NCBI GenBank assembly: GCA_002189035.1
Contig: NEEC01000290.1
Coordinates: 1-50,598, forward strand
DNA: 50,598 nt
Reading direction: 5' to 3'
Origin: Utricularia gibba
Lineage: Eukaryota > Streptophyta > Magnoliopsida > Lamiales > Lentibulariaceae
Shown one piece after another: positions 1 through 25,036 of the stretch; the stretch's first letter is position 1, and each line of letters begins with the position of its first letter. Both the position numbers and the translations under genes were made by a program. The notes under the pieces were generated by a model that saw nothing but the letters and a program-made list of their open reading frames with translations, was not told the origin of the DNA and did not search any database.

Positions 1-178
1 GTTCCTTGAAAAACCATGTAGGCAGCCCCTGAAAACCGAACGTTAATAAATGCATCACTTTAGTTGCCAGGCTACAACTAACTTTCGGCCCAAACCAACC
101 TGACCATTGTCCCGTTCCAGGTGCCCCCCAAGACCGCCTCCTCAAGTATAAAGTAAGTTGTTGAAAAAATCATGTGGG
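1..178 (+). repeat. Partial monomer at left edge
   Basis: The window opens inside a monomer, at GTTCCTTGAAAAACC, the H1/H2 junction. It contains a complete H2 half and the first bases of the next H1 up to the first anchor at 179. Its variants are class A (CCATGTAGG, CCCCTGAAAA, TAGTTGCCAGG). The array therefore continues to the left of the window. Confidence 0.97.
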
Positions 179-3100
179 TGCACGTGACATCTTACTTTAA
201 ACAAATGCATCATTATTTTCGTCGACTCGCACCGGTTGGGCTCATGAGCCGGACAAACGGGGGCCTGACCAAGTGCCCAGTTAAAGTGGCCACACAAAAC
301 GAGAAGCTGTTCCTTGAAAAACCTTGTAGGCAGCGCCCGAAAACCGAACGTTAATAAATGCATCACTTTATTTGCAAGGCTACAACTAACTTTCGTCCCA
401 AGCCCAACCTGACCATTGTCCCGTTCAGGTGCCCCCAAGACCGCCTCCTCAAGTATAAAGTAAGTTGTTGAAAAAATCATGTGGGGTGCACGTGACATCT
501 TACTTTAAACAAATGCATCATTATTTTCGTCGACTCGCACCGGTTGGACTCATGAGCCGGACTGAACGGCGGCCCGACCAAGTGCCTAGCGAGAGTAGTC
601 GCCACAAAACGAGAAGCTGTTCCTTGAAAAACCATGTAGGCAGCCCTGAAAACCGAACGTTAATAAATGCATCACTTTAGTTGCCAGGCTACACTAACTT
701 TCGGCCCAAACCAACCTGACCATTGTCCCGTTCCAGGTGCCCCCCAAGACCGCTCCTCAAGTATAAAGTAAGTTGTTGAAAAAATCATGTGGGTGCACGT
801 GACATCTTACTTTAAACAAATGCATCATTATTTTCGTCGACTCGCACCGGTTGGGCTCATGAGCCGGACCAAACGAGGGCCGACCAAGTGCCCAGTTAAG
901 TGGCCCACAAAACGAGAAGCTGTTCCTTGAAAAACCTGTAGGCAGCCCCGAAAACCGAACGTTAATAAATGCATCACTTTAGTTGCCAGGCTACAACTAA
1001 CTTTCGGCCAAACCAACCTGACCATTGTCCCGTTCTAGGTGCCCCCAAGACCGCTCCTCAAGTATAAAGTAAGTTGTTGAAAAAATCATGTGGGGTGCAC
1101 GTGACATCTTACTTTAAACAAATGCATCATTATTTCGTCGACTCGCACCGGTTGGACTCATGAGCCGGAACGGGGGGCCGACCAAGTGCCCAGCGAGAGT
1201 AGTCGCCACAAAACGAGAAGCTGTTCCTTGAAAAACCATGTAGGCAGCCCCTAAAAACCGAACGTTAATAAATGCATCACTTTTTTGCCAGGCTACAACT
1301 AACTTTCGGCCAAACCAACCTGACCATTGTCCGTTCCAGGTGCCCCCAAGACCGCCTCCTCAAGTATAAAGTAAGTTGTTGAAAAAATCATGTGGGGTGC
1401 ACGTGACATCTTACTTTAAAAATTGCATCATTATTTTCGTCGACTCGCACCCGGTTGGCTCATGAGCCGGACTGAACGGGGGGCCGACCAAGTGCCCAGC
1501 GAGAGTAGTCGCCACAAAACGAGAAGCTGTTCCTTGAAAAAACCATGTAGGCAGCCCCTGAAAACCGAACGTTAATAAATGCATCACTTTAGTTGCAGGC
1601 TACAACTAACTTTCGGCCCAAGCCAAACCTGACCATTGTCCCGTTCCAGGTGCCCCCCAAGACCGCCTCCTCAAGTATAAAGTAAGTTGTTGAAAAAATC
1701 ATGTGGGGTGCACGTGACATCTTACTTTAAACAAATGCATCATTATTTTCGTCGACTCGCACCGGTTGGACTCATGAGCCGGACTGAACGGGGGGCCCGA
1801 CCAAGTGCCCAGCGAGAGTAGTCGCCACAAAACGAGAAGCTGTTCCTTGAAAAAACCATGTAGGCAGCCCCTGAAAACCGAACGTTAATAAATGCATCAC
1901 TTTAGTTGCAGGCTACAACTAACTTTCGGCCCAACCAAACCTGACCATTGTCCCGTTCTAGGTGCCCCCAAGACCGCCTCCTCAAGTATAAAGTAAGTTG
2001 TTGAAAAAATCATGTGGGGTGCACGTGACATCTTACTTTAAAAAATGCATCATTATTTTCGTCGACTCGCACCCGTTGGACTCATGAGCCGGACCGAACG
2101 GGCCCGACCAAGTGCCCAGCGAGAGTAGCCGCACAAAACGAGAAGCTGTTCCTTGAAAAACCATGTAGGCAGCCCCTGAAAACCGAACGTTAATAAATGC
2201 ATCACTTTAGTTGCCAGGCTACAACTAACTTTCGGCCCAACCAAAACCTGACCATTGTCCCGTTCCAGGTGCCCCCAAGACCGCCTCCTCAAGTATAAGT
2301 AAGTTGTTGAAAAAATCATGTGGGGTGCACGTGACATCTTACTTTAAACAAATGCATCATTATTTTCGTCGACTCGCACCGGTTGGGCTCATGAGCCGGA
2401 CTGAACGGGGGCCGACCAAGTGCCCAGCGAAGAGTGGCCACACAAACGAGAAGCTGTTCCTTGAAAAAACCTTGTAGGCAGCCCGAAAACCGAACGTTAA
2501 TAAATGCATCACTTTATTGCAGGCTACAACTAACTTTCGGCCCAAACCAACCTGACCATTGTCCCGTTTAGGTGCCCCCCAAGACCGCCTCCTCAAGTAT
2601 AAAGTAAGTTGTTGAAAAAATCATGTGGGGTGCACGTGACATCTTACTTTAAACAAATGCATCATTATTTTCGTCGACTCGCACCGGTTGGCTCATGAGC
2701 CGGACCGAACGGGGGCCGGACCAAGTGCCCAGCGAGAGTAGTGCCACAAAACGAGAAGCTGTTCCTTGAAAAACCTGTAGGCAGCCCCTGAAAACCGAAC
2801 GTTAATAAATGCATCACTTTAGTTTGCCAGGCTACAACTAACTTTCGGCCCAAGCCAACCTGACCATTGTCCCGTTCAGGTGCCCCCCAAGACCGCCTCC
2901 TCAAGTATAAAGTAAGTTGTTGAAAAAATCATGTGGGGTGCACGTGACATCTTACTTTAAACAAATGCATCATTATTTTCGTCGACTCGCACCGGATTGG
3001 CCTCATGAGCCGGACTGAACGGGGGGCCGACCAAGTGCCCAGCGAGAGTAGTCGCCACAAAACGAGAAGCTGTTCCTTGAAAAACCATGTAGGCAGCCCC

Positions 3101-6100
3101 TGAAACCGAACGTTAATAAATGCATCACTTTAGTTGCCAGGCTACAACTAACTTTCGGCCCAAGCCAACCTGACCATTGTCCGTTCAGGTGCCCCCAAGA
3201 CCGCCTCCTCAAGTATAAAGTAAGTTGTTGAAAAAACATGTGGGGTGCACGTGACATCTTACTTTAAACAAACGCATCATTATTTTCGTCGACTCGCACC
3301 GGTTGGACTCATGAGCCGGACTGAACGGGGGGCCGACCAAGTGCCCAGCGAGAGTAGTCGCCACAAAACGAGAAGCTGTTCCTTGAAAACCATGTAGGCA
3401 GCCCCGAAAACCGAACGTTAATAAATGCATCACTTTATTTGCCAGGCTACAACTAACTTTCGGCCCAAGCCAACCTGACCATTGTCCCGTTCCAGGTGCC
3501 CCCCAAGACCGCCTCCTCAAGTATAAAGTAAGTTGTTGAAAAAATCATGTGGGGTGCACGTGACATCTTACTTTAAACAAATGCATCATTATTTTCGTCG
3601 ACTCGCACCGGTTGGACTCATGAGCCGGACGAACGGGGGCCGACCAAGTGCCCAGCGAGAGTAGTCGCCACAAAACGAGAAGCTGTTCCTTGAAAAACCT
3701 TGTAGCAGCCCGAAAACCGAACGTTAATAAATGCATCACTTTATTTGCCAGGCTACAACTAACTTTCGGCCCAAGCCAACCTGACCATTGTCCCGTTCAG
3801 GTGCCCCCAAGACCGCCTCCTCAAGTATAAAGTAAGTTGTTGAAAAAATCATGTGGGGTGCACGTGACATCTTACTTTAAACAAATGCATCATTATTTTC
3901 GTCGACTCGCACCGGTTGGACTCATGAGCCGGACTGAACGGGGGGCCGACCAAGTGCCCAGCGAGAGTAGTCCCACAAAACGAGAAGCTGTTCCTTGAAA
4001 AACCATGTAGGCAGCCCCTGAAAACCGAACGTTAATAAATGCATCACTTTAGTTGCCAGGCTACAACTAACTTTCGGCCCAAGCCAACCTGACCATTGTC
4101 CCGTTCCAGGTGCCCCCAAGACCGCCTCCTCAAGTATAAAGTAAGTTGTTGAAAAAATCATGTGGGGTGCACGTGACATCTTACTTTAAACAAATGCATC
4201 ATTATTTTCGTCGACTCGCACCGGTTGGACTCATGAGCGGACCGAACGGCCGACCAAGTGCCCAGCGAGAGTAGTCGCCACAAAACGAGAAGCTGTTCCT
4301 TTAAAAACCATGTAGGCAGCCCCTGAAAAACCGAACGTTAATAAATGCATCACTTTATTTGCCAGGCTACAACTAACTTTCGGCCCAAGCCAACCTGACC
4401 ATTGTCCCGTTCGGTGCCCCCAAGACCGCCTCCTCAAGTATAAAGTAAGTTGTTGAAAAAATCATGTGGGGTGCACGTGACATCTTACTTTAAACAATGC
4501 ATCATTATTTTCGTCGACTCGCACCGGTTGGGCTCATGAGCCGGACTGAACGGGGGGCCGACCAAGTGCCCAGCGAGAGTAGTCGCCACAAAACGAGAAG
4601 CTGTTCCTTTAAAAACCATGTAGGCAGCCCCTGAAAACCGAACGTTAATAAATGCATCACTTTAGTTGCCAGGCTACAACTAACTTTCGGCCCAACCAAA
4701 CCTGACCATTGTCCCGTTCCAGGTGCCCCCCAAGACCGCCTCCTCAAGTATAAAGTAAGTTGTTGAAAAAATCATGTGGGTGCACGTGACATCTTACTTT
4801 AAACAAATGCATCATTATTTTCGTCGACTCGCACCGGTTGGACTCATGAGCCGGACTGAACGGGGGGCCGACCAAGTGCCCAGCGAGAGTAGTCGCCACA
4901 AAACGAGAAGCTGTTCCTTGAAAAACCATGTAGGCAGCCCCTGAAAACGAACGTTAATAAATGCATCACTTTAGTTGCCAGGCTACAACTAACTTTCGGC
5001 CCAACCAACCTGACCATTGTCCCGTTCAGGTGCCCCCAAGACCGCCTCCTCAAGTATAAGTAAGTTGTTGAAAAAATCATGTGGGGTGCACGTGACATCT
5101 TACTTTAAACAAATGCATCATTATTTTCGTCGACTCGCACCGGTTGGCTCATGAGCCGGACTGAACGGGGCCGACCAAGTGCCCAGCGAGAGTAGTCGCC
5201 ACAAAACGAGAAGCTGTTCCTTGAAAAACCTGTAGGCAGCCCCTGAAAACCGAACGTTAATAAATGCATCACTTTAGTTGCAGGCTACAACTAACTTTCG
5301 GCCCAACCAACCTGACCATTGTCCCGTTCAGGTGCCCCCAAGACCGCCTCCTCAAGTATAAAGTAAGTTGTTGAAAAAATCATGTGGGGTGCACGTGACA
5401 TCTTACTTTAAACAAATGCATCATTATTTTCGTCGACTCGCACCGGTTGGACTCATGAGCGGACCGAACGGGGGCCCGACCAAGTGCCCCGAGAGTAGTC
5501 GCCACAAAACGAGAAGCTGTTCCTTGAAAACCATGTAGGCAGCCCCTGAAAACCGAACGTTAATAAATGCATCACTTTAGTTGCCAGGCTACAACTAACT
5601 TTCGGCCCAAACCAACCTGACCATTGTCCCGTTCAGGTGCCCCCCAAGACCGCCTCCTCAAGTATAAAGTAAGTTGTTGAAAAAATCATGTGGGGTGCAC
5701 GTGACATCTTACTTTAAACAAATGCATCATTATTTTCGTCGACTCGCACCGGTTGGGCTCATGAGCCGGACGAACGCGACCAAGTGCCCAGCGAGAGTGT
5801 CGCCACAAAACGAGAAGCTGTTCCTTTAAAAACCTGTAGGCAGCCCCGAAAACCGAACGTTAATAAATGCATCACTTTATTGCCAGGCTACAACTAACTT
5901 TCGGCCCAAACCCAACCTGACCATTGTCCCGTTCAGGTGCCCCCAAGACCGCCTCCTCAAGTATAAAGTAAGTTGTTGAAAAAATCATGTGGGGTGCACG
6001 TGACATCTTACTTTAAACAAATGCATCATTATTTTCGTCGACTCGCACCCGGTTGGACTCATGAGCCGGACCGAACGGGGGGCCGACCAAGTGCCCAGCG

Positions 6101-9100
6101 AGAGTAGTCGCCACAAAAACGAGAAGCTGTTCCTTGAAAAACCATGTAGGCAGCCCCTGAAAACCGAACGTTAATAAATGCATCACTTTAGTTGCCAGGC
6201 TACAACTAACTTTCGGCCCAAGCCAAACCTGACCATTGTCCCGTTCCAGGTGCCCCCAAGACCGCCTCCTCAAGTATAAAGTAAGTTGTTGAAAAAATCA
6301 TGTGGGGTGCACGTGACATCTTACTTTAAACAAATGCATCATTATTTTCGTCGACTCGCACCGGTTGGACTCATGAGCCGGACGAACGGGGGCCGACCAA
6401 GTGCCCAGCGAGAGTAGTCGCCACAAAAACGAGAAGCTGTTCCTTGAAAAACCATGTAGGCAGCCCCTGAAAACCGAACGTTAATAAATGCATCACTTTA
6501 GTTGCCAGGCTACAACTAACTTTCGGCCCAAACCAACCTGACCATTGTCCCGTTCAGGTGCCCCCAAGACCGCCTCCTCAAGTATAAAGTAAGTTGTTGA
6601 AAAAATCATGTGGGGTGCACGTGACATCTTACTTTAAAAATGCATCATTATTTTCGTCGACTCGCACCGGTTGGGCTCATGAGCCGGACTGAAAACCAAG
6701 TGCCCAGCGAGAGTGGCCACAAAACGAGAAGCTGTTCCTTGAAAAACCATGTAGGCAGCCCCTGAAAACCGAACGTTAATAAATGCATCACTTTAGTTGC
6801 CAGGCTACAACTAACTTTCGGCCCAAGCCAAACCTGACCATTGTCCCGTTCCAGGTGCCCCCCAAGACCGCCTCCTCAAGTATAAAGTAAGTTGTTGAAA
6901 AAATCATGTGGGGTGCACGTGACATCTTACTTTAAACAAATGCATCATTATTTTCGTCGACTCGCACCGGTTGGGCTCATGAGCCGGACTGAACGGGGGG
7001 CCGACCAAGTGCCCAGTTAAAGTGGCCCCACAAAACGAGAAGCTGTTCCTTGAAAAACCTTGTAGGCAGCCCCGAAAACCGAACGTTAATAAATGCATCA
7101 CTTTAGTTGCCAGGGCTACAACTAACTTTCGGCCCAAACCAACCTGACCATTGTCCCGTTAGGTGCCCCCAAGACCGCCTCCTCAAGTATAAAGTAAGTT
7201 GTTGAAAAAATCATGTGGGGTGCACGTGACATCTTACTTTAAACAAATGCATCATTATTTTCGTCGACTCGCACCGGTTGGACTCATGAGCCGGACCGAA
7301 CGGGCCGACCAAGTGCCCAGCGAGAGTAGTGCCACAAAACGAGAAGCTGTTCCTTGAAAAACCATGTAGGCAGCCCTGAAAACCGAACGTTAATAAATGC
7401 ATCACTTTAGTTGCCAGGCTACAACTAACTTTCGTCCCAAGCCAACCTGACCATTGTCCCGTTCTAGGTGCCCCAAGACCGCCTCCTCAAGTATAAAGTA
7501 AGTTGTTGAAAAAATCATGTGGGGTGCACGTGACATCTTACTTTAAACAAACGCATCATTATTTTCGTCGACTCGCAGCCGGTTGGACTCATGAGCCGGA
7601 CTGAACGGGGCCCGACCAAGTGCCTAGCGAGAGTAGTCGCCACAAAACGAGAAGCTGTTCCTTTAAAAACCATGTAGGCAGCCCCTGAAAACCGAACGTT
7701 AATAAATGCATCACTTTAGTTGCCAGGCTACAACTAACTTTCGGCCCAAACCCAACCTGACCATTGTCCCGTTCAGGTGCCCCAAGACCGCCTCCTCAAG
7801 TATAAAGTAAGTTGTTGAAAAAATCATGTGGGGTGCACGTGACATCTTACTTTAAAAATTGCATCATTATTTTCGTCGACTCGCACCGGTTGGGCTCATG
7901 AGCCGGACCAACGGGGGGCGACCAAGTGCCCAGCGAGAGTAGTCGCCACAAAACGAGAAGCTGTTCCTTGAAAAACCATGTAGGCAGCCCCTGAAAACCG
8001 AACGTTAATAAATGCATCACTTTAGTTGCCAGGCTACAACTAACTTTCGGCCCAAGCCAACCTGACCATTGTCCCGTTCCAGGTGCCCCCAAGACCGCCT
8101 CCTCAAGTATAAAGTAAGTTGTTGAAAAAATCATGTGGGGTGCACGTGACATCTTACTTTAAACAAATGCATCATTATTTTCGTCGACTCGCACCGGTTG
8201 GACTCATGAGCCGGACTGAACGGGGGCCGACCAAGTGCCCAGCGAGAGTAGTCGCCACAAAACGAGAAGCTGTTCCTTGAAAAACCTTGTAGGCAGCCCC
8301 GAAAACCGAACGTTAATAAATGCATCACTTTAGTTGCCAGGCTACAACTAACTTTCGGCCCAAACCAACCTGACCATTGTCCCGTTCCAGGTGCCCCCAA
8401 GACCGCCTCCTCAAGTATAAAGTAAGTTGTTGAAAAAATCATGTGGGGTGCACGTGACATCTTACTTTAAACAAATGCATCATTATTTTCGTCGACTCGC
8501 ACCGGTTGGGCTCATGAGCCGGACCGAACGGGGGGCCGACCAAGTGCCCAGCGAGAGTAGTCGCCACAAACGAGAAGCTGTTCCTTGAAAACCATGTAGG
8601 CAGCCCCGAAAACCGAACGTTAATAAATGCATCACTTTATTTGCCAGGCTACAACTAACTTTCGGCCCAAGCCAAACCTGACCATTGTCCCGTTCCAGGT
8701 GCCCCCAAGACCGCCTCCTCAAGTATAAAGTAAGTTGTTGAAAAAATCATGTGGGGTGCACGTGACATCTTACTTTAAACAAATGCATCATTATTTTCGT
8801 CGACTCGCACCGGTTGGACTCATGAGCCGGACGAACGGGCCCGACCAAGTGCCCAGCGAGAGTAGTCGCCACAAAACGAGAAGCTGTTCCTTTAAAAACC
8901 ATGTAGGCAGCCCCTGAAAACCGAACGTTAATAAATGCATCACTTTTTTGCCAGGCTACAACTAACTTTCGGCCAAACCAACCTGACCATTGTCCCGTTC
9001 CAGGTGCCCCCCAAGACCGCCTCCTCAAGTATAAAGTAAGTTGTTGAAAAAATCATGTGGGGTGCACGTGACATCTTACTTTAAAAATTGCATCATTATT

Positions 9101-12100
9101 TTCGTCGACTCGCACCGGTTGGCTCATGAGCCGGACAAACGGGGGCGACCAAGTGCCCAGCGAGAGTAGTCGCCACAAAACGAGAAGCTGTTCCTTGAAA
9201 AACCATGTAGGCAGCCCCTGAAAACCGAACGTTAATAAATGCATCACTTTAGTTGCCAGGCTACAACTAACTTTCGGCCCAAGCCAAACCTGACCATTGT
9301 CCCGTTCCAGGTGCCCCCAAGACCGCCTCCTCAAGTATAAAGTAAGTTGTTGAAAAAATCATGTGGGGCACGTGACATCTTACTTTAAACAAATGCATCA
9401 TTATTTTCGTCGACTCGCACCGGTTGGACTCATGAGCCGGACTGAACGGGGGGCCGACCAAGTGCCCAGCGAGAGTAGTCGCCACAAAACGAGAAGCTGT
9501 TCCTTGAAAAACCTTGTAGGCAGCCCCGAAAACCGAACGTTAATAAATGCATCACTTTATTTGCCAGGCTACAACTAACTTTCGGCCCAAGCCAACCTGA
9601 CCATTGTCCCGTTCGGTGCCCCAAGACCGCCTCCTCAAGTATAAAGTAAGTTGTTGAAAAAATCATGTGGGGTGCACGTGACATCTTACTTTAAACAAAC
9701 GCATCATTATTTTCGTCGACTCGCACGGTTGGGCTCATGAGCCGGACTGAACGGGGGGCCGACCAAGTGCCCAGCGAGAGTAGTCGCCACAAAACGAGAA
9801 GCTGTTCCTTGAAAAACCTTGTAGGCAGCCCCTGAAAACCGAACGTTAATAAATGCATCACTTTATTTGCCAGGCTACAACTAACTTTCGGCCCAAGCCA
9901 AACCTGACCATTGTCCCGTTCCAGGTGCCCCCAAGACCGCCTCCTCAAGTATAAAGTAAGTTGTTGAAAAAATCATGTGGGGTGCACGTGACATCTTACT
10001 TTAAACAAATGCATCATTATTTTCGTCGACTCGCACCGGTTGGACTCATGAGCCGGACTGAACGGGGGGCCCGACCAAGTGCCAGCGAGAGTAGTCGCCA
10101 CAAAACGAGAAGCTGTTCCTTGAAAAACCATGTAGGCAGCCCCTGAAAACCGAACGTTAATAAATGCATCACTTTATTTGCCAGGCTACAACTAACTTTC
10201 GGCCCAACCCAACCTGACCATTGTCCCGTTCCAGGTGCCCCCCAAGACCGCCTCCTCAAGTATAAAGTAAGTTGTTGAAAAAAATCATGTGGGGTGCACG
10301 TGACATCTTACTTTAAAAAATGCATCATTATTTTCGTCGACTCGCACCGGTTGGGCTCATGAGCCGGACTGAACGGGGGGCGACCAAGTGCCCAGCGAGA
10401 GTAGTCGCCACAAAACGAGAAGCTGTTCCTTGAAAAACCATGTAGGCAGCCCTGAAAACCGAACGTTAATAAATGCATCACTTTAGTTGCCAGGCTACAA
10501 CTAACTTTCGGCCCAAGCCAAACCTGACCATTGTCCCGTTCCAGGTGCCCCCCAAGACCGCCTCCTCAAGTATAAAGTAAGTTGTTGAAAAAATCATGTG
10601 GGGTGCACGTGACATCTTACTTTAAACAAATGCATCATTATTTTCGTCGACTCGCACCGGTTGGACTCATGAGCCGGACTGAACGGGGGGCCGACCAAGT
10701 GCCCAGCGAGAGTAGTCGCCACAAAACGAGAAGCTGTTCCTTGAAAAACCATGTAGGCAGCCCCGAAAACCGAACGTTAATAAATGCATCACTTTATTTG
10801 CCAGGCTACAACTAACTTTCGGCCCAAGCCAACCTGACCATTGTCCCGTTCCAGGTGCCCCCAAGACCGCCTCCTCAAGTATAAAGTAAGTTGTTGAAAA
10901 AATCATGTGGGGTGCACGTGACATCTTACTTTAAACAAACGCATCATTATTTTCGTCGACTCGCACCGGTTGGACTCATGAGCCGGACTGAACGGGGGGC
11001 CGACCAAGTGCCCAGCGAGAGTAGTCGCCCACAAAACGAGAAGCTGTTCCTTGAAAAACCATGTAGGCAGCCCCGAAAACCGAACGTTAATAAATGCATC
11101 ACTTTAGTTGCCAGGCTACAACTAACTTTCGGCCCAAGCCAACCTGACCATTGTCCCGTTCAGGTGCCCCCAAGACCGCCTCCTCAAGTATAAAGTAAGT
11201 TGTTGAAAAAATCATGTGGGGTGCACGTGACATCTTACTTTAAACAAATGCATCATTATTTTCGTCGACTCGCACCGGTTGGACTCATGAGCCGGACTGA
11301 ACGGGGGCCGACCAAGTGCCCAGCGAGAGTAGTCGCCACAAAACGAGAAGCTGTTCCTTGAAAAACCTTGTAGGCAGCCCCGAAAACCGAACGTTAATAA
11401 ATGCATCACTTTAGTTGCCAGGCTACAACTAACTTTCGGCCCAAGCCAAACCTGACCATTGTCCCGTTCAGGTGCCCCCAAGACCGCCTCCTCAAGTATA
11501 AAGTAAGTTGTTGAAAAAATCATGTGGGGTGCACGTGACATCTTACTTTAAACAAATGCATCATTATTTTTCGTCGACTCGCACCGGTTGGACTCATGAG
11601 CCGGACTGAACGGGGGCCGACCAAGTGCCAGCGAGAGTAGTCGCCACAAAACGAGAAGCTGTTCCTTGAAAAACCATGTAGGCAGCCCCGAAAACCGAAC
11701 GTTAATAAATGCATCACTTTAGTTGCCAGGCTACAACTAACTTTCGGCCCAAGCCAACCTGACCATTGTCCCGTTCCAGGTGCCCCAAGACCGCCTCCTC
11801 AAGTATAAAGTAAGTTGTTGAAAAAATCATGTGGGTGCACGTGACATCTTACTTTAAACAAATGCATCATTATTTTCGTCGACTCGCACCGGTTGGACTC
11901 ATGAGCCGGACTGAACGGGGGGCCGACCAAGTGCCCAGCGAGAGTGCCACAAAACGAGAAGCTGTTCCTTTAAAAACCATGTAGGCAGCCCCTGAAAACC
12001 GAACGTTAATAAATGCATCACTTTAGTTGCCAGGCTACAACTAACTTTCGGCCCAAGCCAACCTGACCATTGTCCCGTTCCAGGTGCCCCCAAGACCGCC

Positions 12101-13991
12101 TCCTCAAGTATAAAGTAAGTTGTTGAAAAAATCATGTGGGGTGCACGTGACATCTTACTTTAAACAAATGCATCATTATTTTCGTCGACTCGCACCGGTT
12201 GGACTCATGAGCCGGACCGAACGGGGGGCCCGACCAAGTGCCCAGCGAGAGTAGTCGCCACAAAACGAGAAGCTGTTCCTTGAAAAACCATGTAGGCAGC
12301 CCCTGAAAACCGAACGTTAATAAATGCATCACTTTTTGCCAGGCTACAACTAACTTTCGTCCCAACCCAACCTGACCATTGTCCCGTTCCAGGTGCCCCC
12401 AAGACCGCCTCCTCAAGTATAAAGTAAGTTGTTGAAAAAATCATGTGGGGTGCACGTGACATCTTACTTTAAACAAATGCATCATTATTTTCGTCGACTC
12501 GCACCGGTTGGACTCATGAGCCGGACTGAACGGGGGGCCGACCAAGTGCCCAGCGAGAGTAGTCGCCACAAAACGAGAAGCTGTTCCTTTAAAAACCATG
12601 TAGGCAGCCCCTGAAAACCGAACGTTAATAAATGCATCACTTTAGTTGCCAGGCTACAACTAACTTTCGGCCCAAGCCAAACCTGACCATTGTCCCGTTC
12701 AGGTGCCCCCCAAGACCGCCTCCTCAAGTATAAAGTAAGTTGTTGAAAAAATCATGTGGGGTGCACGTGACATCTTACTTTAAACAAATGCATCATTATT
12801 TCGTCGACTCGCACGGTTGGCTCATGAGCCGGACAACGGGGGGCTGACCAAGTGCCCAGCGAGAGTGCCACAAAACGAGAAGCTGTTCCTTTAAAAACCT
12901 TGTAGGCAGCGCCCGAAAACCGAACGTTAATAAATGCATCACTTTATTTGCAAGGCTACAACTAACTTTCGGCCCAAGCCCAACCTGACCATTGTCCCGT
13001 TCCAGGTGCCCCCCAAGACCGCCTCCTCAAGTATAAAGTAAGTTGTTGAAAAAATCATGTGGGGTGCACGTGACATCTTACTTTAAACAAATGCATCATT
13101 ATTTTCGTCGACTCGCACCGGTTGGGCTCATGAGCCGGACTGAACGGGGGGCCGACCAAGTGCCCAGCGAGAGTAGTCGCCACAAAACGAGAAGCTGTTC
13201 CTTGAAAAACCATGTAGGCAGCCCCTGAAAACCGAACGTTAATAAATGCATCACTTTAGTTGCCAGGCTACAACTAACTTTCGCCCAAACCCAACCTGAC
13301 CATTGTCCCGTTCGGTGCCCCCCAAGACCGCCTCCTCAAGTATAAAGTAAGTTGTTGAAAAAATCATGTGGGGTGCACGTGACATCTTACTTTAAACAAA
13401 TGCATCATTATTTTCGTCGACTCGCACCGGTTGGCTCATGAGCCGGACTGAACGGGGGGCCCGACCAAGTGCCCAGCGAAGTAGTCGCCACAAAACGAGA
13501 AGCTGTTCCTTGAAAAACCTGTAGGCAGCCCCTGAAAACCGAACGTTAATAAATGCATCACTTTAGTTGCCAGGCTACAACTAACTTTCGGCCCAAGCCA
13601 ACCTGACCATTGTCCCGTTCAAGGTGCCCCCCAAGACCGCCTCCTCAAGTATAAAGTAAGTTGTTGAAAAAATCATGTGGGGTGCACGTGACATCTTACT
13701 TTAAACAAATGCATCATTATTTTCGTCGACTCGCACCGGTTGGACTCATGAGCGGGACCGAACGGGCGCCGGACCAAGTGCCCAGCGAGAGTAGTCGCCA
13801 CAAACGAGAAGCTGTTCCTTGAAAAACCATGTAGGCAGCCCCTGAAAACCGAACGTTAATAAATGCATCACTTTAGTTGCCAGGCTACAACTAACTTTCG
13901 GCCCAAGCCAACCTGACCATTGTCCCGTTCCAGGTGCCCCCAAGACCGCCTCCTCAAGTATAAAGTAAGTTGTTGAAAAAATCATGTGGGG
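179..13991 (+). repeat. Monomers 1-45: nearly pure class A block
   Basis: Forty-five consecutive monomers, overwhelmingly of class A. Class B copies with the GTTAAAGTGG-type segment appear only at 179, 794 and 6914. A few hybrids occur, such as the copy at 2326 (B-like first half), and the copy at 12762, whose second half is B-like (CCTTGTAGG, TTTGCAAGG). Four scattered copies (3246, 7525, 9673, 10913) carry the A2 change CAAACGCATC. Several copies have small deletions in the G-rich segment, for example 5696 (299 bp) and 6616 (298 bp). I see no fixed higher-order period here. No gene is present. Confidence 0.9.
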
Positions 13992-15209
13992 TGCACGTGA
14001 CATCTTACTTTAAACAAATGCATCATTATTTTCGTCGACTCGCACCGGTTGGGCTCATGAGCCGGACCAAACGGAGGGCCGACCAAGTGCCAGTTAGAGT
14101 GGCCACACAAAACGAGAAGCTGTTCCTTGAAAAACCATGTAGGCAGCCCGAAAACCGAACGTTAATAATGCATCACTTTAGTTGCCAGGCTACAACTAAC
14201 TTTCGGCCCAAGCCAACCTGACCATTGTCCGTTCAGGTGCCCCCAAGACCGCCTCCTCAAGTATAAAGTAAGTTGTTGAAAAAATCATGTGGGGTGCACG
14301 TGACATCTTACTTTAAAAAATGCATCATTATTTTCGTCGACTCGCACCCGGTTGGACTCATGAGCCGGACCGAACGGCGCCGACCAAGTGCCAGCGAGAG
14401 TAGCCGCACAAAACGAGAAGCTGTTCCTTGAAAAACCATGTAGGCAGCCCCTGAAAACCGAACGTTAATAAATGCATCACTTTAGTTGCCAGGCTACAAC
14501 TAACTTTCGGCCCAAGCCAACCTGACCATTGTCCCGTTAGGTGCCCCCCAAGACCGCCTCCTCAAGTATAAAGTAAGTTGTTGAAAAATCATGTGGGGTG
14601 CACGTGACATCTTACTTTAAACAAATGCATCATTATTTTCGTCGACTCGCACCGGTTGGACTCATGAGCCGGACCGAACGGGGCTGACCAAGTGCCCAGC
14701 GAGAGTAGTCGCCACAAAACGAGAAGCTGTTCCTTGAAAAACCTGTAGGCAGCCCCTGAAAACCGAACGTTAATAAATGCATCACTTTAGTTGCCAGGCT
14801 ACAACTAACTTTCGTCCCAAGCCAAACCTGACCATTGTCCCGTTCTAGGTGCCCCAAGACCGCCCTCAAGTATAAAGTAAGTTGTTGAAAAAATCATGTG
14901 GGGTGCACGTGACATCTTACTTTAAACAATGCATCATTATTTTCGTCGACTCGCACCGGTTGGCTCATGAGCCGGACCGAACGGAGACCAAGTGCCCAGC
15001 GAGAGTAGTCGCCACACAAAACGAGAAGCTGTTCCTTGAAAAACCATTGTAGGCAGCCCCTGAAAACCGAACGTTAATAAATGCATCACTTTAGTTGCCA
15101 GGCTACAACTAACTTTCGGCCCAAGCCAACCTGACCATTGTCCCGTTCAAGGTGCCCCAAAGACCGCCTCCTCAAGTATAAAGTAAGTTGTTGAAAAAAT
15201 CATGTGGGG
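13992..15209 (+). repeat. Monomers 46-49: transition from A-only to mixed A/B
   Basis: The copy at 13992 is class B (CCAAACGGAGG, GTTAGAGTGG). It also lost one A in its AATAAATG motif near 14165. The next three (14295, 14599, 14904) are A-like. To the left B copies are rare; to the right they make up about a third of the array. This is where the class composition changes. No gene is present. Confidence 0.75.
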
Positions 15210-17967
15210 TGCACGTGACATCTTACTTTAAAAATGCATCATTATTTTCGTCGACTCGCACCGGTTGGGCTCATGAGCCGGACAAACGGGGCCGACCAAG
15301 TGCCCAGTTAAGTGGCCGACACAAAACGAGAAGCTGTTCCTTGAAAAACCTTGTAGGCAGCCCCTGAAAACCGAACGTTAATAAATGCATCACTTTATTT
15401 GCAAGGCTACAACTAACTTTCGGCCCAAGCCAACCTGACCATTGTCCCGTTCAGGTGCCCCCAAGACCGCCTCCTCAAGTATAAAGTAAGTTGTTGAAAA
15501 AATCATGTGGGGTGCACGTGACATCTTACTTTAAACAAATGCATCATTATTTTCGTCGACTCGCACCGGTTGGGCTCATGAGCCGGACCAACGGAGGCTT
15601 GACCAAGTGCCCAGTAAAGTGGCGCACAAAACGAGAAGCTGTTCCTTGAAAAACCTGTAGGCAGCCCCTGAAAACCGAACGTTAATAAATGCATCACTTT
15701 AGTTGCAAGGCTACAACTAACTTTCGGCCCAAGCCAACCTGACCATTGTCCCGTTTCAGGTGCCCCCAAGACCGCCTCCTCAAGTATAAAGTAAGTTGTT
15801 GAAAAAATCATGTGGGGTGCACGTGACATCTTACTTTAAACAAATGCATCATTATTTTCGTCGACTCGCACCGTTGGACTCATGAGCCGGACCGAACGGG
15901 CGCCGGACCAAGTGCCCAGCGAGAGTAGTCGCACAAAACGAGAAGCTGTTCCTTGAAAAACCATGTAGGCAGCCCCTGAAAACCGAACGTTAATAAATGC
16001 ATCACTTAGTTGCCAGGCTACAACTAACTTTCGGCCCAAGCCAACCTGACCATTGTCCCGTTCCAGGTGCCCCCCAAGACCGCCTCCTCAAGTATAAAGT
16101 AAGTTGTTGAAAAAATCATGTGGGGTGCACGTGACATCTTACTTTAAACAAACGCATCATTATTTTCGTCGACTCGCACCGGTTGGACTCATGAGCCGGA
16201 CTGAACGGGGGGCCCGACCAAGTGCCCAGCGAGAGTAGTCGCCACAAAACGAGAAGCTGTTCCTTGAAAAACCATGTAGGCAGCCCCTGAAAACCGAACG
16301 TTAATAAATGCATCACTTTAGTTGCCAGGCTACAACTAACTTTCGGCCCAAGCCAACCTGACCATTGTCCCGTTCAGGTGCCCCCCAAGACCGCCTCCTC
16401 AAGTATAAAGTAAGTTGTTGAAAAAATCATGTGGGGTGCACGTGACATCTTACTTTAAACAAATGCATCATTATTTTCGTCGACTCGCACCGGTTGGGCT
16501 CATGAGCCGGACCAAACGGAGGCTTGACCAAGTGCCCAGTTAAGTGGCGACACAAAACGAGAAGCTGTTCCTTGAAAAACCTTGTAGGCAGCCCCCGAAA
16601 ACCGAACGTTAATAAATGCATCACTTTATTTGCAAGGCTACAACTAACTTTCGTCCCAAGCCAAACCTGACCATTGTCCCGTTCAGGTGCCCCCAAGACC
16701 GCCTCCTCAAGTATAAAGTAAGTTGTTGAAAAAATCATGTGGGGTGCACGTGACATCTTACTTTAAAAAGCATCATTATTTTCGTCGACTCGCACCCGGT
16801 TGGGCTCATGAGCCGGACCGAACGCAGCGCCGACCAAGTGCCCAGCGAGAGTGGCGCACAAAACGAGAAGCTGTTCCTTGAAAAAACCATGTAGGCAGCC
16901 CCTGAAAACCGAACGTTAATAAATGCATCACTTTAGTTGCCAGGCTACAACTAACTTTCGGCCCAAACCAACCTGACCATTGTCCCGTTCAAGGTGCCCC
17001 CCAAGACCGCCTCCTCAAGTATAAAGTAAGTTGTTGAAAAATCATGTGGGGTGCACGTGACATCTTACTTTAAACAAATGCATCATTATTTTCGTCGACT
17101 CGCACCGGTTGGACTCATGAGCCGGACCAACGGAGGCCGGACCAAGTGCCCAGCGAGAGTAGTCGCACAAAACGAGAAGCTGTTCCTTGAAAAACCTTGT
17201 AGGCAGCCCCGAAAACCGAACGTTAATAAATGCATCACTTTATTTGCAAGGCTACAACTAACTTTCGGCCCAAGCCAACCTGACCATTGTCCCGTTCAGG
17301 TGCCCCCAAGACCCTCCTCAAGTATAAAGTAAGTTGTTGAAAATCATGTGGGGTGCACGTGACATCTTACTTTAAACAAATGCATCATTATTTTCGTCGA
17401 CTCGCACCGTTGGGCTCATGAGCCGGACCAACGGAGGCCGACCAAGTGCCCAGCGAGAGTGGCGCACAAAACGAGAAGCTGTTCCTTGAAAAACCATGTA
17501 GGCAGCCCCTGAAAACCGAACGTTAATAAATGCATCACTTTATTTGCAAGGCTACAACTAACTTTCGTCCAAAGCCAACCTGACCATTGTCCCGTTCAGG
17601 TGCCCCCAAGACCGCCTCCTCAAGTATAAAGTAAGTTGTTGAAAAAATCATGTGGGGTGCACGTGACATCTTACTTTAAACAAATGCATCATTATTTTCG
17701 TCGACTCGCACCGGTTGGACTCATGAGCCGGACCGAACGGGGCCCGACCAAGTGCCCAGCGAGAGTAGTCGCCACAAAACGAGAAGCTGTTCCTTGAAAA
17801 ACCATGTAGGCAGCCCCTGAAAACCGAACGTTAATAAATGCATCACTTTAGTTGCCAGGCTACAACTAACTTTCGGCCCAAGCCAACCTGACCATTGTCC
17901 CGTTCCAGGTGCCCCCCAAGACCGCCTCCTCAAGTATAAAGTAAGTTGTTGAAAAAATCATGTGGGG
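15210..17967 (+). repeat. Higher-order repeat copy 1, nine monomers (50-58)
   Basis: The order of classes is dB, B, A(CGCCGG), A2, B, X, B-like, B-like, A. Diagnostic sites are the lost CA before ATGCATC at about 15230, GCGCCGG near 15901, CAAACGCATC at 16150, and CGCAGCGCC near 16822. It spans 2758 bp. The following nine monomers repeat nearly the same order in 2759 bp, so the two are probably descendants of one amplified nine-monomer unit. Classes were assigned by eye from about eight sites per monomer. Confidence 0.7.
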
Positions 17968-20726
17968 TGCACGTGACATCTTACTTTAAAAAATGCATCA
18001 TTATTTTCGTCGACTCGCACCGGTTGGGCTCATGAGCCGGACCAAACGGAGCTTGACCAAGTGCCCAGTTAGAGTGGCCGCACAAAACGAGAAGCTGTTC
18101 CTTGAAAAACCTTGTAGGCAGCCCCTGAAAACCGAACGTTAATAAATGCATCACTTTAGTTGCAAGGCTACAACTAACTTTCGGCCCAAGCCAACCTGAC
18201 CATTGTCCCGTTCAGGTGCCCCCCAAGACCGCCTCCTCAAGTATAAAGTAAGTTGTTGAAAAAATCATGTGGGGTGCACGTGACATCTTACTTTAAACAA
18301 ATGCATCATTATTTTCGTCGACTCGCACCGGTTGGGCTCATGAGCCGGACCAAACGGAGGCCGACCAAGTGCCCAGTTAAAGTGGCCCACAAAACGAGAA
18401 GCTGTTCCTTGAAAAACCATGTAGGCAGCCCCTGAAAACCGAACGTTAATAAATGCATCACTTTAGTTTGCCAGGCTACAACTAACTTTCGGCCCAAGCC
18501 AACCTGACCATTGTCCCGTTCAGGTGCCCCCCAAGACCGCCTCCTCAAGTATAAAGTAAGTTGTTGAAAAAATCATGTGGGGGCACGTGACATCTTACTT
18601 TAAACAAATGCATCATTATTTTCGTCGACTCGCACCGGTTGGACTCATGAGCGGGACCGAACGGCGCCGGACCAAGTGCCCAGCGAGAGTAGTCGCCACA
18701 AAACGAGAAGCTGTTCCTTGAAAAACCATGTAGGCAGCCCCTGAAAACCGAACGTTAATAAATGCATCACTTTAGTTGCCAGGCTACAACTAACTTTCGT
18801 CCCAGCCCAACCTGACCATTGTCCCGTTCAGGTGCCCCCCAAGACCGCCTCCTCAAGTATAAAGTAAGTTGTTGAAAAAATCATGTGGGGTGCACGTGAC
18901 ATCTTACTTTAAACAAACGCATCATTATTTTCGTCGACTCGCACCGGTTGGACTCATGAGCCGGACTGAACGGGGGCCCGACCAAGTGCCCAGCGAGAGT
19001 AGTCGCCACAAAAAACGAGAAGCTGTTCCTTGAAAAACCATGTAGGCAGCCCCTGAAAACCGAACGTTAATAAATGCATCACTTTAGTTGCCAGGCTACA
19101 ACTAACTTTCGGCCCAAGCCAACCTGACCATTGTCCCGTTCCAGGTGCCCCCCAAGACCGCCTCCTCAAGTATAAAGTAAGTTGTTGAAAAAATCATGTG
19201 GGGTGCACGTGACATCTTACTTTAAACAAATGCATCATTATTTTCGTCGACTCGCACCGGTTGGGCTCATGAGCCGGACCAAACGGAGGGCCGACCAAGT
19301 GCCCAGTTAAAGTGGCCGACACAAAACGAGAAGCTGTTCCTTGAAAAACCTGTAGGCAGCCCCGAAAACCGAACGTTAATAAATGCATCACTTTATTTGC
19401 AAGGCTACAACTAACTTTCGTCCCAAGCCAACCTGACCATTGTCCCGTTCAGGTGCCCCAAGACCGCCTCCTCAAGTATAAAGTAAGTTGTTGAAAAAAT
19501 CATGTGGGGTGCACGTGACATCTTACTTTAAACAAATGCATCATTATTTTCGTCGACTCGCACCGGTTGGACTCATGAGCGGGACCGAACGGGCGCCGGA
19601 CCAAGTGCCCAGCGAGAGTAGTCGCCACAAAACGAGAAGCTGTTCCTTGAAAAACCATGTAGGCAGCCCCTGAAAACCGAACGTTAATAAATGCATCACT
19701 TTAGTTGCCAGGCTACAACTAACTTTCGGCCCAAGCCCAACCTGACCATTGTCCCGTTCCAGGTGCCCCCAAGACCGCCTCCTCAAGTATAAAGTAAGTT
19801 GTTGAAAAAATCATGTGGGGTGCACGTGACATCTTACTTTAAAAATGCATCATTATTTTCGTCGACTCGCACCGGTTGGGCTCATGAGCCGGACCAAACG
19901 GAGGCTTGACCAAGTGCCCAGTTAAAGTGGCCGACACAAAACGAGAAGCTGTTCCTTGAAAAACCATGTAGGCAGCCCCTGAAAACCGAACGTTAATAAA
20001 TGCATCACTTTATTTGCCAGGCTACAACTAACTTTCGGCCCAAGCCAACCTGACCATTGTCCCGTTCAGGTGCCCCCAAGACCGCCCTCAAGTATAAAGT
20101 AAGTTGTTGAAAAAATCATGTGGGGTGCACGTGACATCTTACTTTAAACAAATGCATCATTATTTTCGTCGACTCGCACCACCCGAGCCGGACCAAACGG
20201 AAAGTGCCCAGTGAGAGTGGCCACACAAAACGAGAAGCTGTTCCTTGAAAAACCATGTAGGCAGCCCCGAAAACCGAACGTTAATAAATGCATCACTTTA
20301 TTTGCCAGGCTACAACTAACTTTCGGCCCAAGCCAAACCTGACCATTGTCCCGTTCTAGGTGCCCCCAAGACCGCCTCCTCAAGTATAAAGTAAGTTGTT
20401 GAAAAAATCATGTGGGGTGCACGTGACATCTTACTTTAAACAAATGCATCATTATTTTCGTCGACTCGCACCGGTTGGACTCATGAGCCGGACCGAACGC
20501 AGCGCCGACCAAGTGCCCAGCGAGAGTAGTCGCCACAAAAACGAGAAGCTGTTCCTTGAAAAACCATGTAGGCAGCCCTGAAAACCGAACGTTAATAAAT
20601 GCATCACTTTAGTTGCCAGGCTACAACTAACTTTCGGCCCAAGCCAACCTGACCATTGTCCCGTTTAGGTGCCCCCAAGACCGCCTCCTCAAGTATAAAG
20701 TAAGTTGTTGAAAAAATCATGTGGGG
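17968..20726 (+). repeat. Higher-order repeat copy 2, nine monomers (59-67)
   Basis: The order is dB, B, A(CGCCGG), A2, B, A(GCGCCGG), dB, B-like, A. Seven or more of the nine positions agree with the preceding nine-monomer block, and its length differs by 1 bp (2759 against 2758). The eighth monomer (20126-20417) has a private deletion, so the near-equal totals are partly compensating. No gene is present. Confidence 0.7.
20126..20417 (+). repeat. Shortest monomer (292 bp), internal deletion
   Basis: The segment after GTCGACTCGCACC reads ACCCGAGCCGG, losing the GGTTGGGCTCATG stretch. A further loss removes bases before AAGTGCCC. The rest is B-like (CCAAACGG, GTGGCC). The remaining parts of the monomer are intact. 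Confidence 0.85.
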
Positions 20727-21034
20727 TGCACGTGACATCTTACTTTAAAAATGCATCATTATTTTCGTCGACTCGCACCGGTTGGGCTCATGAGCCGGAC
20801 CAAACGGAGGCTTGACCAAGTGCCCAGTTAAAGTGGCCGACACAAAACGAGAAGCTGTTCCTTGAAAAACCTTGTAGGCAGCCCCTGAAAACCGAACGTT
20901 AATAAATGCATCACTTTATTTGCAAGGCTACAACTAACTTTCGTCCCAAGCCAACCTGACCATTGTCCCGTTTCAGGTGCCCCCAAGACCGCCTCCTCAA
21001 GTATAAAGTAAGTTGTTGAAAAAATCATGTGGGG
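20727..21034 (+). repeat. Reference class B monomer (no. 68, dB form)
   Basis: A 308-bp example of class B with the lost CA (TTTAAAAATGCATC). Marks are GGGCTC, CCAAACGGAGGCTTG, CAGTTAAAGTGGCCG, CCTTGTAGG, TATTTGCAAGG and TTTCGTCCC. I count about 43 B copies among 164, three in the first 45 monomers and 40 in the remaining 119. Differences from A are concentrated from about 60 bp after the anchor to about 210 bp, so the two classes are not evenly diverged. Confidence 0.85.
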
Positions 21035-22886
21035 TGCACGTGACATCTTACTTTAAACAAACGCATCATTATTTTCGTCGACTCGCAGCCGGTTGGACTC
21101 ATGAGCCGGACTGAACGGGCGCCCGACCAAGTGCCCAGCGAGAGTAGTCGCCACAAAACGAGAAGCTGTTCCTTGAAAAACCATGTAGGCAGCCCCTGAA
21201 AACCGAACGTTAATAAATGCATCACTTTAGTTGCCAGGCTACAACTAACTTTCGGCCCAAACCAACCTGACCATTGTCCCGTTCCAGGTGCCCCCCAAGA
21301 CCGCCTCCTCAAGTATAAAGTAAGTTGTTGAAAAAATCATGTGGGGTGCACGTGACATCTTACTTTAAACAAATGCATCATTATTTTCGTCGACTCGCAC
21401 CGGTTGGGCTCATGAGCCGGACCAAACGGAGGGCTTGACCAAGTGCCCAGTAAAGTGGCCACACAAAACGAGAAGCTGTTCCTTGAAAAACCTTGTAGGC
21501 AGCCCCGAAAACCGAACGTTAATAAATGCATCACTTTATTTGCCAGGCTACAACTAACTTTCGTCCCAAGCCAAACCTGACCATTGTCCCGTTCTAGGTG
21601 CCCCCAAGACCGCCTCCTCAAGTATAAAGTAAGTTGTTGAAAAAATCATGTGGGGTGCACGTGACATCTTACTTTAAACAAATGCATCATTATTTTCGTC
21701 GACTCGCACCGGTTGGACTCATGAGCCGGACCGAACGCAGCGCCGGACCAAGTGCCCAGCGAGAGTAGTCGCCACAAAAACGAGAAGCTGTTCCTTGAAA
21801 AACCATGTAGGCAGCCCTGAAAACCGAACGTTAATAAATGCATCACTTTAGTTGCCAGGCTACAACTAACTTTCGGCCCAAGCCCAACCTGACCATTGTC
21901 CCGTTCAAGGTGCCCCCCAAGACCGCCTCCTCAAGTATAAAGTAAGTTGTTGAAAAAATCATGTGGGGTGCACGTGACATCTTACTTTAAACAAATGCAT
22001 CATTATTTTCGTCGACTCGCACCGGTTGGGCTCATGAGCCGGACCAAACGGGGCTTGACCAAGTGCCCAGTTAAAGTGGCCACAAAACGAGAAGCTGTTC
22101 CTTGAAAAACCTTGTAGGCAGCCCCTGAAAACCGAACGTTAATAAATGCATCACTTTATTTGCCAGGCTACAACTAACTTTCGGCCCAAGCCAAACCTGA
22201 CCATTGTCCCGTTTCAGGTGCCCCCAAGACCGCCTCCTCAAGTATAAAGTAAGTTGTTGAAAAAATCATGTGGGGTGCACGTGACATCTTACTTTAAACA
22301 AATGCATCATTATTTTCGTCGACTCGCACCGGTTGGGCTCATGAGCCGGACCAACGGAGGCCACCAAGTGCCCAGAGAGTGGCCGCACAAAACGAGAAGC
22401 TGTTCCTTGAAAAACCTTGTAGGCAGCCCCGAAAACCGAACGTTAATAAATGCATCACTTTATTTGCAAGGCTACAACTAACTTTCGTCCCAAGCCAACC
22501 TGACCATTGTCCCGTTCTAGGTGCCCCCCAAGACCGCCTCCTCAAGTATAAAGTAAGTTGTTGAAAAAATCATGTGGGGTGCACGTGACATCTTACTTTA
22601 AACAAATGCATCATTATTTTCGTCGACTCGCACGGTTGGACTCATGAGCCGGACTGAACGGGGCCGGACCAAGTGCCCAGCGAGAGTAGTCGCCACAAAA
22701 CGAGAAGCTGTTCCTTGAAAAACCATGTAGGCAGCCCCTGAAAACCGAACGTTAATAAATGCATCACTTTAGTTGCCAGGCTACAACTAACTTTCGGCCC
22801 AAGCCAACCTGACCATTGTCCCGTTCAGGTGCCCCCAAGACCGCCTCCTCAAGTATAAAGTAAGTTGTTGAAAAAATCATGTGGGG
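20727..22886 (+). repeat. Higher-order repeat copy 3, seven monomers (68-74)
   Basis: The order is dB, A2, B, A(GCAGCGCCGG), B, B-like, A. This matches the nine-monomer block if the B-A pair that follows the first dB is removed, a two-monomer deletion typical of unequal exchange. It spans 2160 bp. The A2 copy at 21035 also carries CGCAGCCGG, an extra G found only in A2 copies. Confidence 0.7.
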
Positions 22887-25036
22887 TGCACGTGACATCT
22901 TACTTTAAAATGCATCATTATTTTCGTCGACTCGCACCGGTTGGGCTCATGAGCCGGACCAAACGGAGGCTTGACCAAGTGCCCAGTTAAAGTGGCCGAC
23001 ACAAAACGAGAAGCTGTTCCTTGAAAAACCTTGTAGGCAGCCCCTGAAAACCGAACGTTAATAAATGCATCACTTTATTTGCAAGGCTACAACTAACTTT
23101 CGGCCCAAGCCAACCTGACCATTGTCCCGTTCAGGTGCCCCAAGACCGCCTCCTCAAGTATAAAGTAAGTTGTTGAAAAAATCATGTGGGGTGCACGTGA
23201 CATCTTACTTTAAACAAACGCATCATTATTTTCGTCGACTCGCACCGGTTGGACTCATGAGCCGGACTGAACGGGGCCCGACCAAGTGCCTAGCGAGAGT
23301 AGTCGCCACAAAACGAGAAGCTGTTCCTTGAAAAACCATGTAGGCAGCCCCTGAAAAACCGAACGTTAATAAATGCATCACTTTAGTTGCCAGGCTACAA
23401 CTAACTTTCGGCCCAAACCAACCTGACCATTGTCCCGTTCCAGGTGCCCCCAAGACCGCCTCCTCAAGTATAAAGTAAGTTGTTGAAAAAATCATGTGGG
23501 GTGCACGTGACATCTTACTTTAAACAAATGCATCATTATTTTCGTCGACTCGCACCGGTTGGGCTCATGAGCCGGACCAAACGGAGGGCTTGACCAAGTG
23601 CCCAGTTAAGTGGCCCACAAAACGAGAAGCTGTTCCTTGAAAAACCTTGTAGGCAGCGCCGAAAACCGAACGTTAATAAATGCATCACTTTATTTGCAAG
23701 GCTACAACTAACTTTCGTCCCAAGCCAAACCTGACCATTGTCCCGTTCTAGGTACCCCAAGACCGCCTCCTCAAGTATAAAGTAAGTTGTTGAAAAAATC
23801 ATGTGGGGTGCACGTGACATCTTACTTTAAAAATTGCATCATTATTTTCGTCGACTCGCACCCGGTTGGGCTCATGAGCCGGACCGAACGCAGCGCCGAC
23901 CAAGTGCCCAGTGAGAGTGGCCGACACAAAACGAGAAGTTGTTCCTTTAAAAACCATGTAGGCAGCCCCTGAAAACCGAACGTTAATAAATGCATCACTT
24001 TAGTTGCCAGGCTACAACTAACTTTCGGCCCAACCAACCTGACCATTGTCCCGTTCCAGGTGCCCCCAAGACCGCCTCCTCAAGTATAAAGTAAGTTGTT
24101 GAAAAAATCATGTGGGGTGCACGTGACATCTTACTTTAAACAAATGCATCATTATTTTCGTCGACTCGCACCTGGTTGGGCTCATGAGCCGGACCAAACG
24201 GAGGGCTTGACCAAGTGCCAGTTAAAGTGGCCACAAAACGAGAAGCTGTTCCTTGAAAAACCTTGTAGGCAGCCCGAAACCGAACGTTAATAAATGCATC
24301 ACTTTAGTTGCCAGGCTACAACTAACTTTCGGCCCAAACCTAACCTGACCATTGTCCCGTTTTAGGTGCCCCCCAAGACCGCCTCCTCAAGTATAAAGTA
24401 AGTTGTTGAAAAAATCATGTGGGGTGCACGTGACATCTTACTTTAAACAAATGCATCATTATTTTCGTCGACTCGCACGGTTGACTCATGAGCGACGAAA
24501 CGGAGGCCCCAAGTGCCCAGCGAGAGTAGTCGCCACAAAACGAGAAGCTGTTCCTTGAAAAACCATGTAGGCAGCCCGAAAACCGAACGTTAATAAATGC
24601 ATCACTTTAGTTGCCAGGCTACAACTAACTTTCGGCCCAAGCCAAACCTGACCATTGTCCCGTTCCAGGTGCCCCAAGACCGCCTCCTCAAGTATAAAGT
24701 AAGTTGTTGAAAAAATCATGTGGGGTGCACGTGACATCTTACTTTAAACAAATGCATCATTATTTTCGTCGACTCGCACCGGATTGGACTCATGAGCCGG
24801 ACCGAACGCAGCGCTGGACCAAGTGCCCAGCGAGAGTAGTCGCCACAAAACGAGAAGCTGTTCCTTGAAAAACCATGTAGGCAGCCCCTGAAACCGAACG
24901 TTAATAAATGCATCACTTTAGTTGCCAGGCTACAACTAACTTTCGTCCCAAGCCAACCTGACCATTGTCCCGTTCCAGGTGCCCCCAAGACCGCCTCCTC
25001 AAGTATAAAGTAAGTTGTTGAAAAAATCATGTGGGG
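22887..25036 (+). repeat. Higher-order repeat copy 4, seven monomers (75-81), degraded
   Basis: The order begins dB, A2, B, X, B, as in the preceding block. The sixth copy (24425) is unusually diverged in the G-rich segment and the seventh (24726) is an A copy with GGATTGG and GCAGCGCTGG. The length is 2150 bp against 2160 bp for the block before. The match weakens towards the right end, so this boundary is approximate. Confidence 0.55.

Follow-up and report, generated by a model that had tools for sequence, protein, structure and literature searches.

In the higher-order repeats (HORs) of primate alpha-satellite DNA, blocks of several distinct monomers recur, and copies that are short by whole monomers occur. 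Similarity is usually far higher between the copies of such a unit than among the monomers inside it. The plant satellite arrays of Arabidopsis CEN178 show local, patchy higher-order repetition. Here we analyzed a satellite array of Utricularia gibba that fills the entire unplaced contig C158 (GenBank accession no. NEEC01000290.1; 50,598 bp, hereafter the window) of an assembly of 100.09 Mb and 516 contigs. At 15.2 to 25.0 kb, the array carries a faint and worn monomer order in which two nine-monomer blocks are followed by two seven-monomer blocks (9-9-7-7). The window shares recurring multimonomer blocks and whole-monomer variants with the alpha-satellite HORs, but there are only four copies, and their identity is about 95.2% in register versus 93.6% at random (14.8 and 19.6 differences of about 307). 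With the CEN178 arrays, it shares the patchiness of a plant satellite, whereas the monomer length differs; this likeness is one of description.

The same genome holds a much clearer case. Contig C47 belongs to the satellite superfamily of the window (monomer of ~312 bp, ~75% identical to the window consensus) and has a homogenized four-monomer unit (~1254 bp), of which the pattern in the window is a faint relative. Monomers of C47 differ at 3.0 to 3.7 positions at offsets 4, 8, 12, and 16 and at 59.5 to 67.6 positions at the other offsets up to 15 (61 monomers from 20,000 of 79,478 bases, with two odd intervals excluded). A first-pass annotation of the window, made from the sequence alone, had expected identity in register well above that of neighboring monomers; set beside C47, the difference between 95.2% and 93.6% does not bear this out. 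Contigs C62 and C108 (20,000 bases read from each) carry the same monomer subfamily as the window (~313 bp) but consist of a single monomer type, so that no higher-order order is visible in them.

A monomer order of nine, then of seven

The array (positions 1 to 50598; all features are given on the plus strand) is built head to tail from one family of ~307-bp monomers. Cutting at the CACGTGACATCTTACTTTAAA anchor yielded 165 anchors spaced 292 to 314 bp apart and thus 164 complete monomers (numbered 0 to 163; mean length, 307.1 bp). Tandem Repeats Finder likewise returned a single unit of 307 or 309 bp in 164.8 copies, spanning positions 1 to 50596. Each monomer was labeled A, B, or X from 11 sites, with "2" added for a C at column 29 and "d" for a gap at column 25, which gave two main types (A and B) and the subtypes A2 and dB. 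Relabeling on another alignment left monomers 49 to 80 unchanged and altered some labels outside this range. Over all monomer pairs in the window, the mean distance was 9.9 substitutions and 19.6 differing columns in total. The composition shifts along the array: 38 of the 45 monomers at positions 178 to 13990 (monomers 0 to 44) are of type A, and B types become common at about 15 kb and beyond.

Copy 1 (monomers 49 to 57; positions 15209 to 17966, 2758 bp) reads dB-B-A-A2-B-dX-X-X-A, and copy 2 (monomers 58 to 66; 17967 to 20725, 2759 bp) reads dB-B-A-A2-B-A-dB-X-A. They are followed by copy 3 (monomers 67 to 73; 20726 to 22885, 2160 bp), with the order dB-A2-B-A-B-B-A, and copy 4 (monomers 74 to 80; 22886 to 25035, 2150 bp), with the order dB-A2-B-dX-B-A-A. 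These limits and lengths agree within one base with those annotated in the first pass. The nine-monomer class order proposed there fared less evenly, as positions 1 to 5 are identical in label between copies 1 and 2 but the later positions are mixed. The change in length from the longer to the shorter copies amounts to a whole number of monomers and is in phase.

The pair missing from copies 3 and 4 is the B-A that follows dB, as had been proposed, and its place is well supported. When each possible two-monomer deletion was ranked on raw differences, that of positions 2 and 3 came 1st, 1st, 1st, and 2nd of 36 in the four block comparisons (1st, 1st, 2nd, and 3rd on substitutions). The extra pair of copy 1 (monomers 50 and 51; 15512 to 16124) has no counterpart in copies 3 and 4. 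In copy 2, the pair lies at 18274 to 18889 (monomers 59 and 60). The A members of the two pairs (51 versus 60) are 3.7 differences closer than expected. The A2-B core that comes after the pair, at 16125 to 16743 in copy 1 (monomers 52 and 53), is among the best-conserved in-register positions, together with monomers 61 and 62, 68 and 69, and 75 and 76. Compared with same-label pairs, monomers in register were closer by 3.5 differences for dB, 3.9 for A2, 7.9 for the fifth-position B, and 3.4 for the last A; the sixth and seventh positions were closer by 1.5 and 1.9.

As the first-pass annotation had predicted, offset 9 gave the lowest diagonal with at least three pairs in 15.2 to 20.7 kb (15.4 differences over 10 pairs; next lowest, 16.7), and offset 7 did so in 20.7 to 25.1 kb (15.1 differences over 8 pairs). 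When homopolymers were compressed, both diagonals passed a shuffle within full labels narrowly (P = 0.038 for offset 9 and P = 0.034 for offset 7). We then considered the four blocks as one model, taking all six pairings of the four copies (44 monomer pairs). Pairs in register differed at 14.8 positions, compared with 19.6 in random order (P = 0.0004), 18.3 when monomers were shuffled within A, B, and X (P = 0.0007), and 17.15 ± 1.0 when they were shuffled within full labels (P = 0.007). With homopolymer compression, the within-label test of the model gave a P value of 0.004.

We also scanned monomers 44 to 163 for a 9-9-7-7 arrangement, leaving the contiguous two-monomer deletion free and using 200 shuffles. 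Monomers 0 to 43, of which 37 of 44 are type A, were excluded from the scans and from the gapped self-alignment. Under five distance measures, the best start was monomer 46, 47, or 48, and the deleted pair was always 50-51 (and 59-60), which is the claimed register with its frame shifted. The P value was 0.005 for all differences, for substitutions, and for the homopolymer-compressed edit distance, 0.030 for the 5' half of the monomer (columns 0 to 160), and 0.020 for the 3' half (columns 161 to 339). Under shuffles that preserve class neighbors, it was 0.049 for differences and 0.016 for labels, the latter being the lowest value that 60 shuffles can give. Of the 29 combinations of unit sizes compared, none did as well as 9/7, which had a z score of 6.8 on labels (null maximum, 3.95) and of 3.8 on differences (null maximum, 3.71), with 60 shuffles. 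A multimonomer block of monomer types therefore recurs beyond chance, and the 9-9-7-7 order is real, if faint and worn. The four-block, two-half, and compressed tests led us to reject the view that the order fails its own within-label test. Self-alignment of labels gave P values of 0.007 to 0.033 with gaps and 0.007 to 0.17 without gaps, depending on the null and the offset limit. We did not rely on it because the best gapped path was 92 steps long and partly reflected the avoidance of B by B described below.

Origin of the two-monomer change

Monomers of type B avoid each other in the window (5 B-B neighbors versus 13.05 expected; P = 0.0004), and adjacent monomers are dissimilar (lag 1, z = -3.9 raw and -4.2 compressed). 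Contig C173, which is one of only two other contigs with the same exact A2 and B words, shows the same tendency (lag 1, z = -2.6). Wherever A and B take turns, an exchange that is out of step by two monomers would tend to align A with A and B with B, making a step of two monomers a natural one. A short and worn higher-order arrangement of two nine-mers and two seven-mers survives at 15.2 to 25.0 kb, and its simplest mechanism would be a change of exactly two monomers by out-of-register exchange within sequence common to the monomers. Unequal crossover, conversion, or single-strand annealing could each have served as the route. The presumed dB/A2 junction would lie at 20924 to 21062 in copy 3, between a site of B type in monomer 67 and the earliest A2-type site in monomer 68 (monomers of 308 and 312 bp, respectively), and at 23083 to 23219 in copy 4. 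The second half of the copy 3 interval is nearly invariant among monomers, which is compatible with homologous exchange and also with a gain in the opposite direction.

We consider it fairly probable that the window holds a worn 9-9-7-7 order whose two-monomer change came about by out-of-register exchange and that some of the differences between the copies are consensus noise. That recombination was the cause is something we infer. A loss of two monomers by exchange is plausible; the first-pass annotation had gone further and seen a loss by unequal exchange caught in sequence. The in-phase change of two monomers holds, but the rest was an interpretation: loss is not distinguished from gain, the copies are not near-identical, and the class-defining sites carry apparent consensus noise.

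Several results weigh against the order or against its origin by exchange. In the raw within-label shuffles, offset 9 in monomers 49 to 66 (9 pairs) gave 16.0 differences versus 17.95 ± 1.54 (P = 0.108), and offset 7 in monomers 67 to 80 (7 pairs) gave 14.0 versus 16.66 ± 1.64 (P = 0.055). On substitutions only, the within-label P values were 0.166 (offset 9) and 0.337 (offset 7), and that of the four-block model was borderline (0.059). The best gapped self-alignment on raw differences (61 to 69 versus 68 to 76) scored 34, which is not significant against the 27.9 ± 4.6 of 60 shuffles (null values up to 41). The eighth position is out of register (20 to 34 differences, 5.3 above expectation), as is the B of the extra pair: monomers 50 and 59 differ at 17 positions, and B monomers in general at 16.9. 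The order stops directly before monomer 49 and after monomer 80 (20.2 differences at 40 to 48 and 21.1 at 81 to 87); the unit is not repeated many times and homogenized, and the adjoining blocks do not fit. Other block starts brought the raw figure down to 16.9 for seven-mers starting at 81 to 99 (lowest at start 89) and 17.3 for nine-mers starting at 30 to 40 (lowest at start 32). Similarity at lag 2 is weak (z = 2.4 to 3.1; 1.6 compressed), and neighbors in contig C417 (20,000 of 30,860 bases read) are alike instead of unlike (lag 1, z = +2.8). Finally, searches for the nine-mer and the seven-mer in the rest of the window, in C173, and in C417 (P = 0.035 to 0.84) found no clear copy and no outgroup that could give the direction of the change.

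The direction may be the reverse, with seven as the older unit and the nine-mers produced by gain of the B-A pair, for example, by duplication of the neighboring B-A. We hold this to be possible though not favored, and its odds overlap those of the exchange reading given above. Monomer 63, which is the A member of the B-A pair that comes next, is 6 differences from monomer 51 and 8 from monomer 60. However, monomers 44, 57, and 142 are equally near to 60 (8 differences each), and 142 is nearer to 51 (4 differences). Outside monomers 49 to 80, the window has a borderline match to the seven-mer motif (P = 0.05) and none to the nine-mer (P = 0.27), but C173 has a slightly better fit to the profile of the nine-mer (P = 0.035) than to that of the seven-mer (P = 0.065).

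Consensus noise and chance

It is also conceivable, but to us rather unlikely, that the order is mainly an effect of assembly. Noisy long reads that came from several copies or regions of the array would then have been merged, and the labels, the mixed monomers, and perhaps even the number of monomers per copy would be products of the consensus. The contig is unplaced, 50.6 kb long, and all satellite. Both A and B alleles occur at the 11 sites in 101 of the 164 monomers, giving 87 haplotypes. The less pure monomers hold twice as many rare states (2.6 versus 1.3) and are shorter (305.2 bp, n = 73, versus 308.6 bp, n = 91; P = 2e-10). This contrast is partly an effect of type B, since pure B monomers are also short (305.1 bp, n = 10), yet the intermediates are the shortest (303.8 bp, n = 12). 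Polymorphic columns have 10.4 deletions each on average, compared with 0.6 for columns at least 21 away. However, two of five isolated polymorphic sites have no dropouts (the others have 15, 9, and 4 of 164), and one column far from presumed polymorphic sites has 43 gaps.

For comparison, the uniform contig C62 was segmented into 64 monomers. The first 53 are 312.7 ± 1.7 bp long, with 0.39 substitutions and 2.85 indels between the members of a pair, and the remaining 11 are ragged (294.8 ± 15.2 bp). Such raggedness, which looks like poor consensus, appears in places in both uniform arrays: in C62 from about 17 kb (down to 264 bp) and in C108 at about 18 to 20 kb (to 214 bp). C173 and C417 look similarly mixed; apart from the window, no other contig has the same exact A2 and B words.

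The mixing of alleles, the shortness, and the deletions at polymorphic columns thus probably arose from a consensus of reads from mixed copies. A and B alleles nevertheless lie in longer runs than random mixing would give (2.30 versus 2.88 switches per mixed monomer), which fits real short-tract exchange too. Because of these runs, the shortness of the pure B monomers, and the dropout pattern, such exchange may contribute to the mixed monomers. The order itself speaks against a purely technical origin, as the register persists under homopolymer compression and in both halves of the monomer. Moreover, the 20 to 34 differences at position 8 mean that the copies are not one stretch of reads laid down four times.

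Chance, by which two monomer types and a few marked subtypes would give such runs somewhere in 165 monomers, is improbable: the raw single-offset within-label tests are weak, ungapped label runs are not significant under neighbor-keeping shuffles with no offset limit (P = 0.07 to 0.17), and the signal is in part generic B-B avoidance, but neighbor-keeping shuffles rarely match the 9-9-7-7 scan, the 29-combination scan exceeds its null maximum, and the two monomer halves agree on the register.

Abundance and location of the satellite in the genome

The window had no match to Rfam at the gathering score and no closed open reading frame of at least 150 amino acids, so there is no sign of a long protein-coding gene or of a known RNA. 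Among the literature matches listed, no publication title concerned this satellite. In related contigs, the ~307-bp monomer appears as two halves of ~155 bp.

A 19-mer of the window monomer had 3,261 exact matches in the genome and 18,587 with at most 2 mismatches (2 for the reversed control). It occurred once per 310 to 417 bp in 20 stretches of the satellite and was absent from two stretches of another satellite. At 312 bp per copy, we estimate that the superfamily makes up about 5.8 Mb, if the unplaced contigs are nonredundant. An 18-mer of a second satellite (period, 336 to 347 bp) had 3,218 matches.

For 14 contigs (C1 to C4 and ten large contigs), we examined the terminal 2.5 kb at each of the 28 ends. 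Contig C213 (3.70 Mb) has telomere repeats at its start, and its end consists wholly of the window satellite superfamily, in a form 93 to 95% like that in C34 and C37 and about 71% like that in the window. The start of C414 has 160 bp of the superfamily, and none was found at the other 26 of the 28 ends. Four contigs carry the second satellite at one end (the starts of C508 and C480 and the ends of C451 and C244), and their opposite ends hold 61 (C244), 9 (C451), 6 (C480), and 6 (C508) telomere-type heptamers in 2.5 kb. In each of C304, C328, C375, and C413, one end has telomere-type repeats and the opposite end is free of both satellites. The starts of C304 and C328, which are their nontelomeric ends, share 2.1 kb at 98.5% identity.

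TTTAGGG repeats stand at the starts of C1, C2, and C3 and, with 46 matches to chlorophyll a/b-binding protein in the assembly, mark the genome as that of a plant. In the sequence examined, telomere repeats occur at both ends of C3 and C4 and only at the starts of C1 and C2. Among the exact matches listed, which are apparently sorted by contig, the first are in C34 for the 310-bp family and in C32 for the second satellite, and C1 to C4 may therefore lack both. C213 puts the superfamily at the inner end of a contig that represents a chromosome arm, perhaps near a centromere. The U. gibba genome is given as 101 Mb, with chromosomes 1 to 4 and records NEEC01000001 to NEEC01000518 (PMC6982007). The putative centromeres of this species have been described as being without satellite repeats. 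We tentatively suggest that the ~310-bp (2 × ~155-bp) superfamily and the ~344-bp satellite might form centromeric or pericentromeric blocks on several U. gibba chromosomes, with the patchy 9-to-7 order as a trace of array turnover; we regard this as possible but rather unlikely.

Implications

The 9-to-7 order is a modest and worn example of a well-known kind and represents ordinary array variation. It also warns that monomer classes read off a satellite contig such as this one may be affected by consensus noise. If the side result on location holds, U. gibba carries satellite DNA on the megabase scale, in part at the inner ends of contigs that represent chromosome arms, and this would bear on the description of its centromeres as satellite free. 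Should the satellites indeed form centromeric or pericentromeric blocks, the chromosomes of a single species would differ, with satellite-rich centromeres on some and satellite-free centromeres on others.

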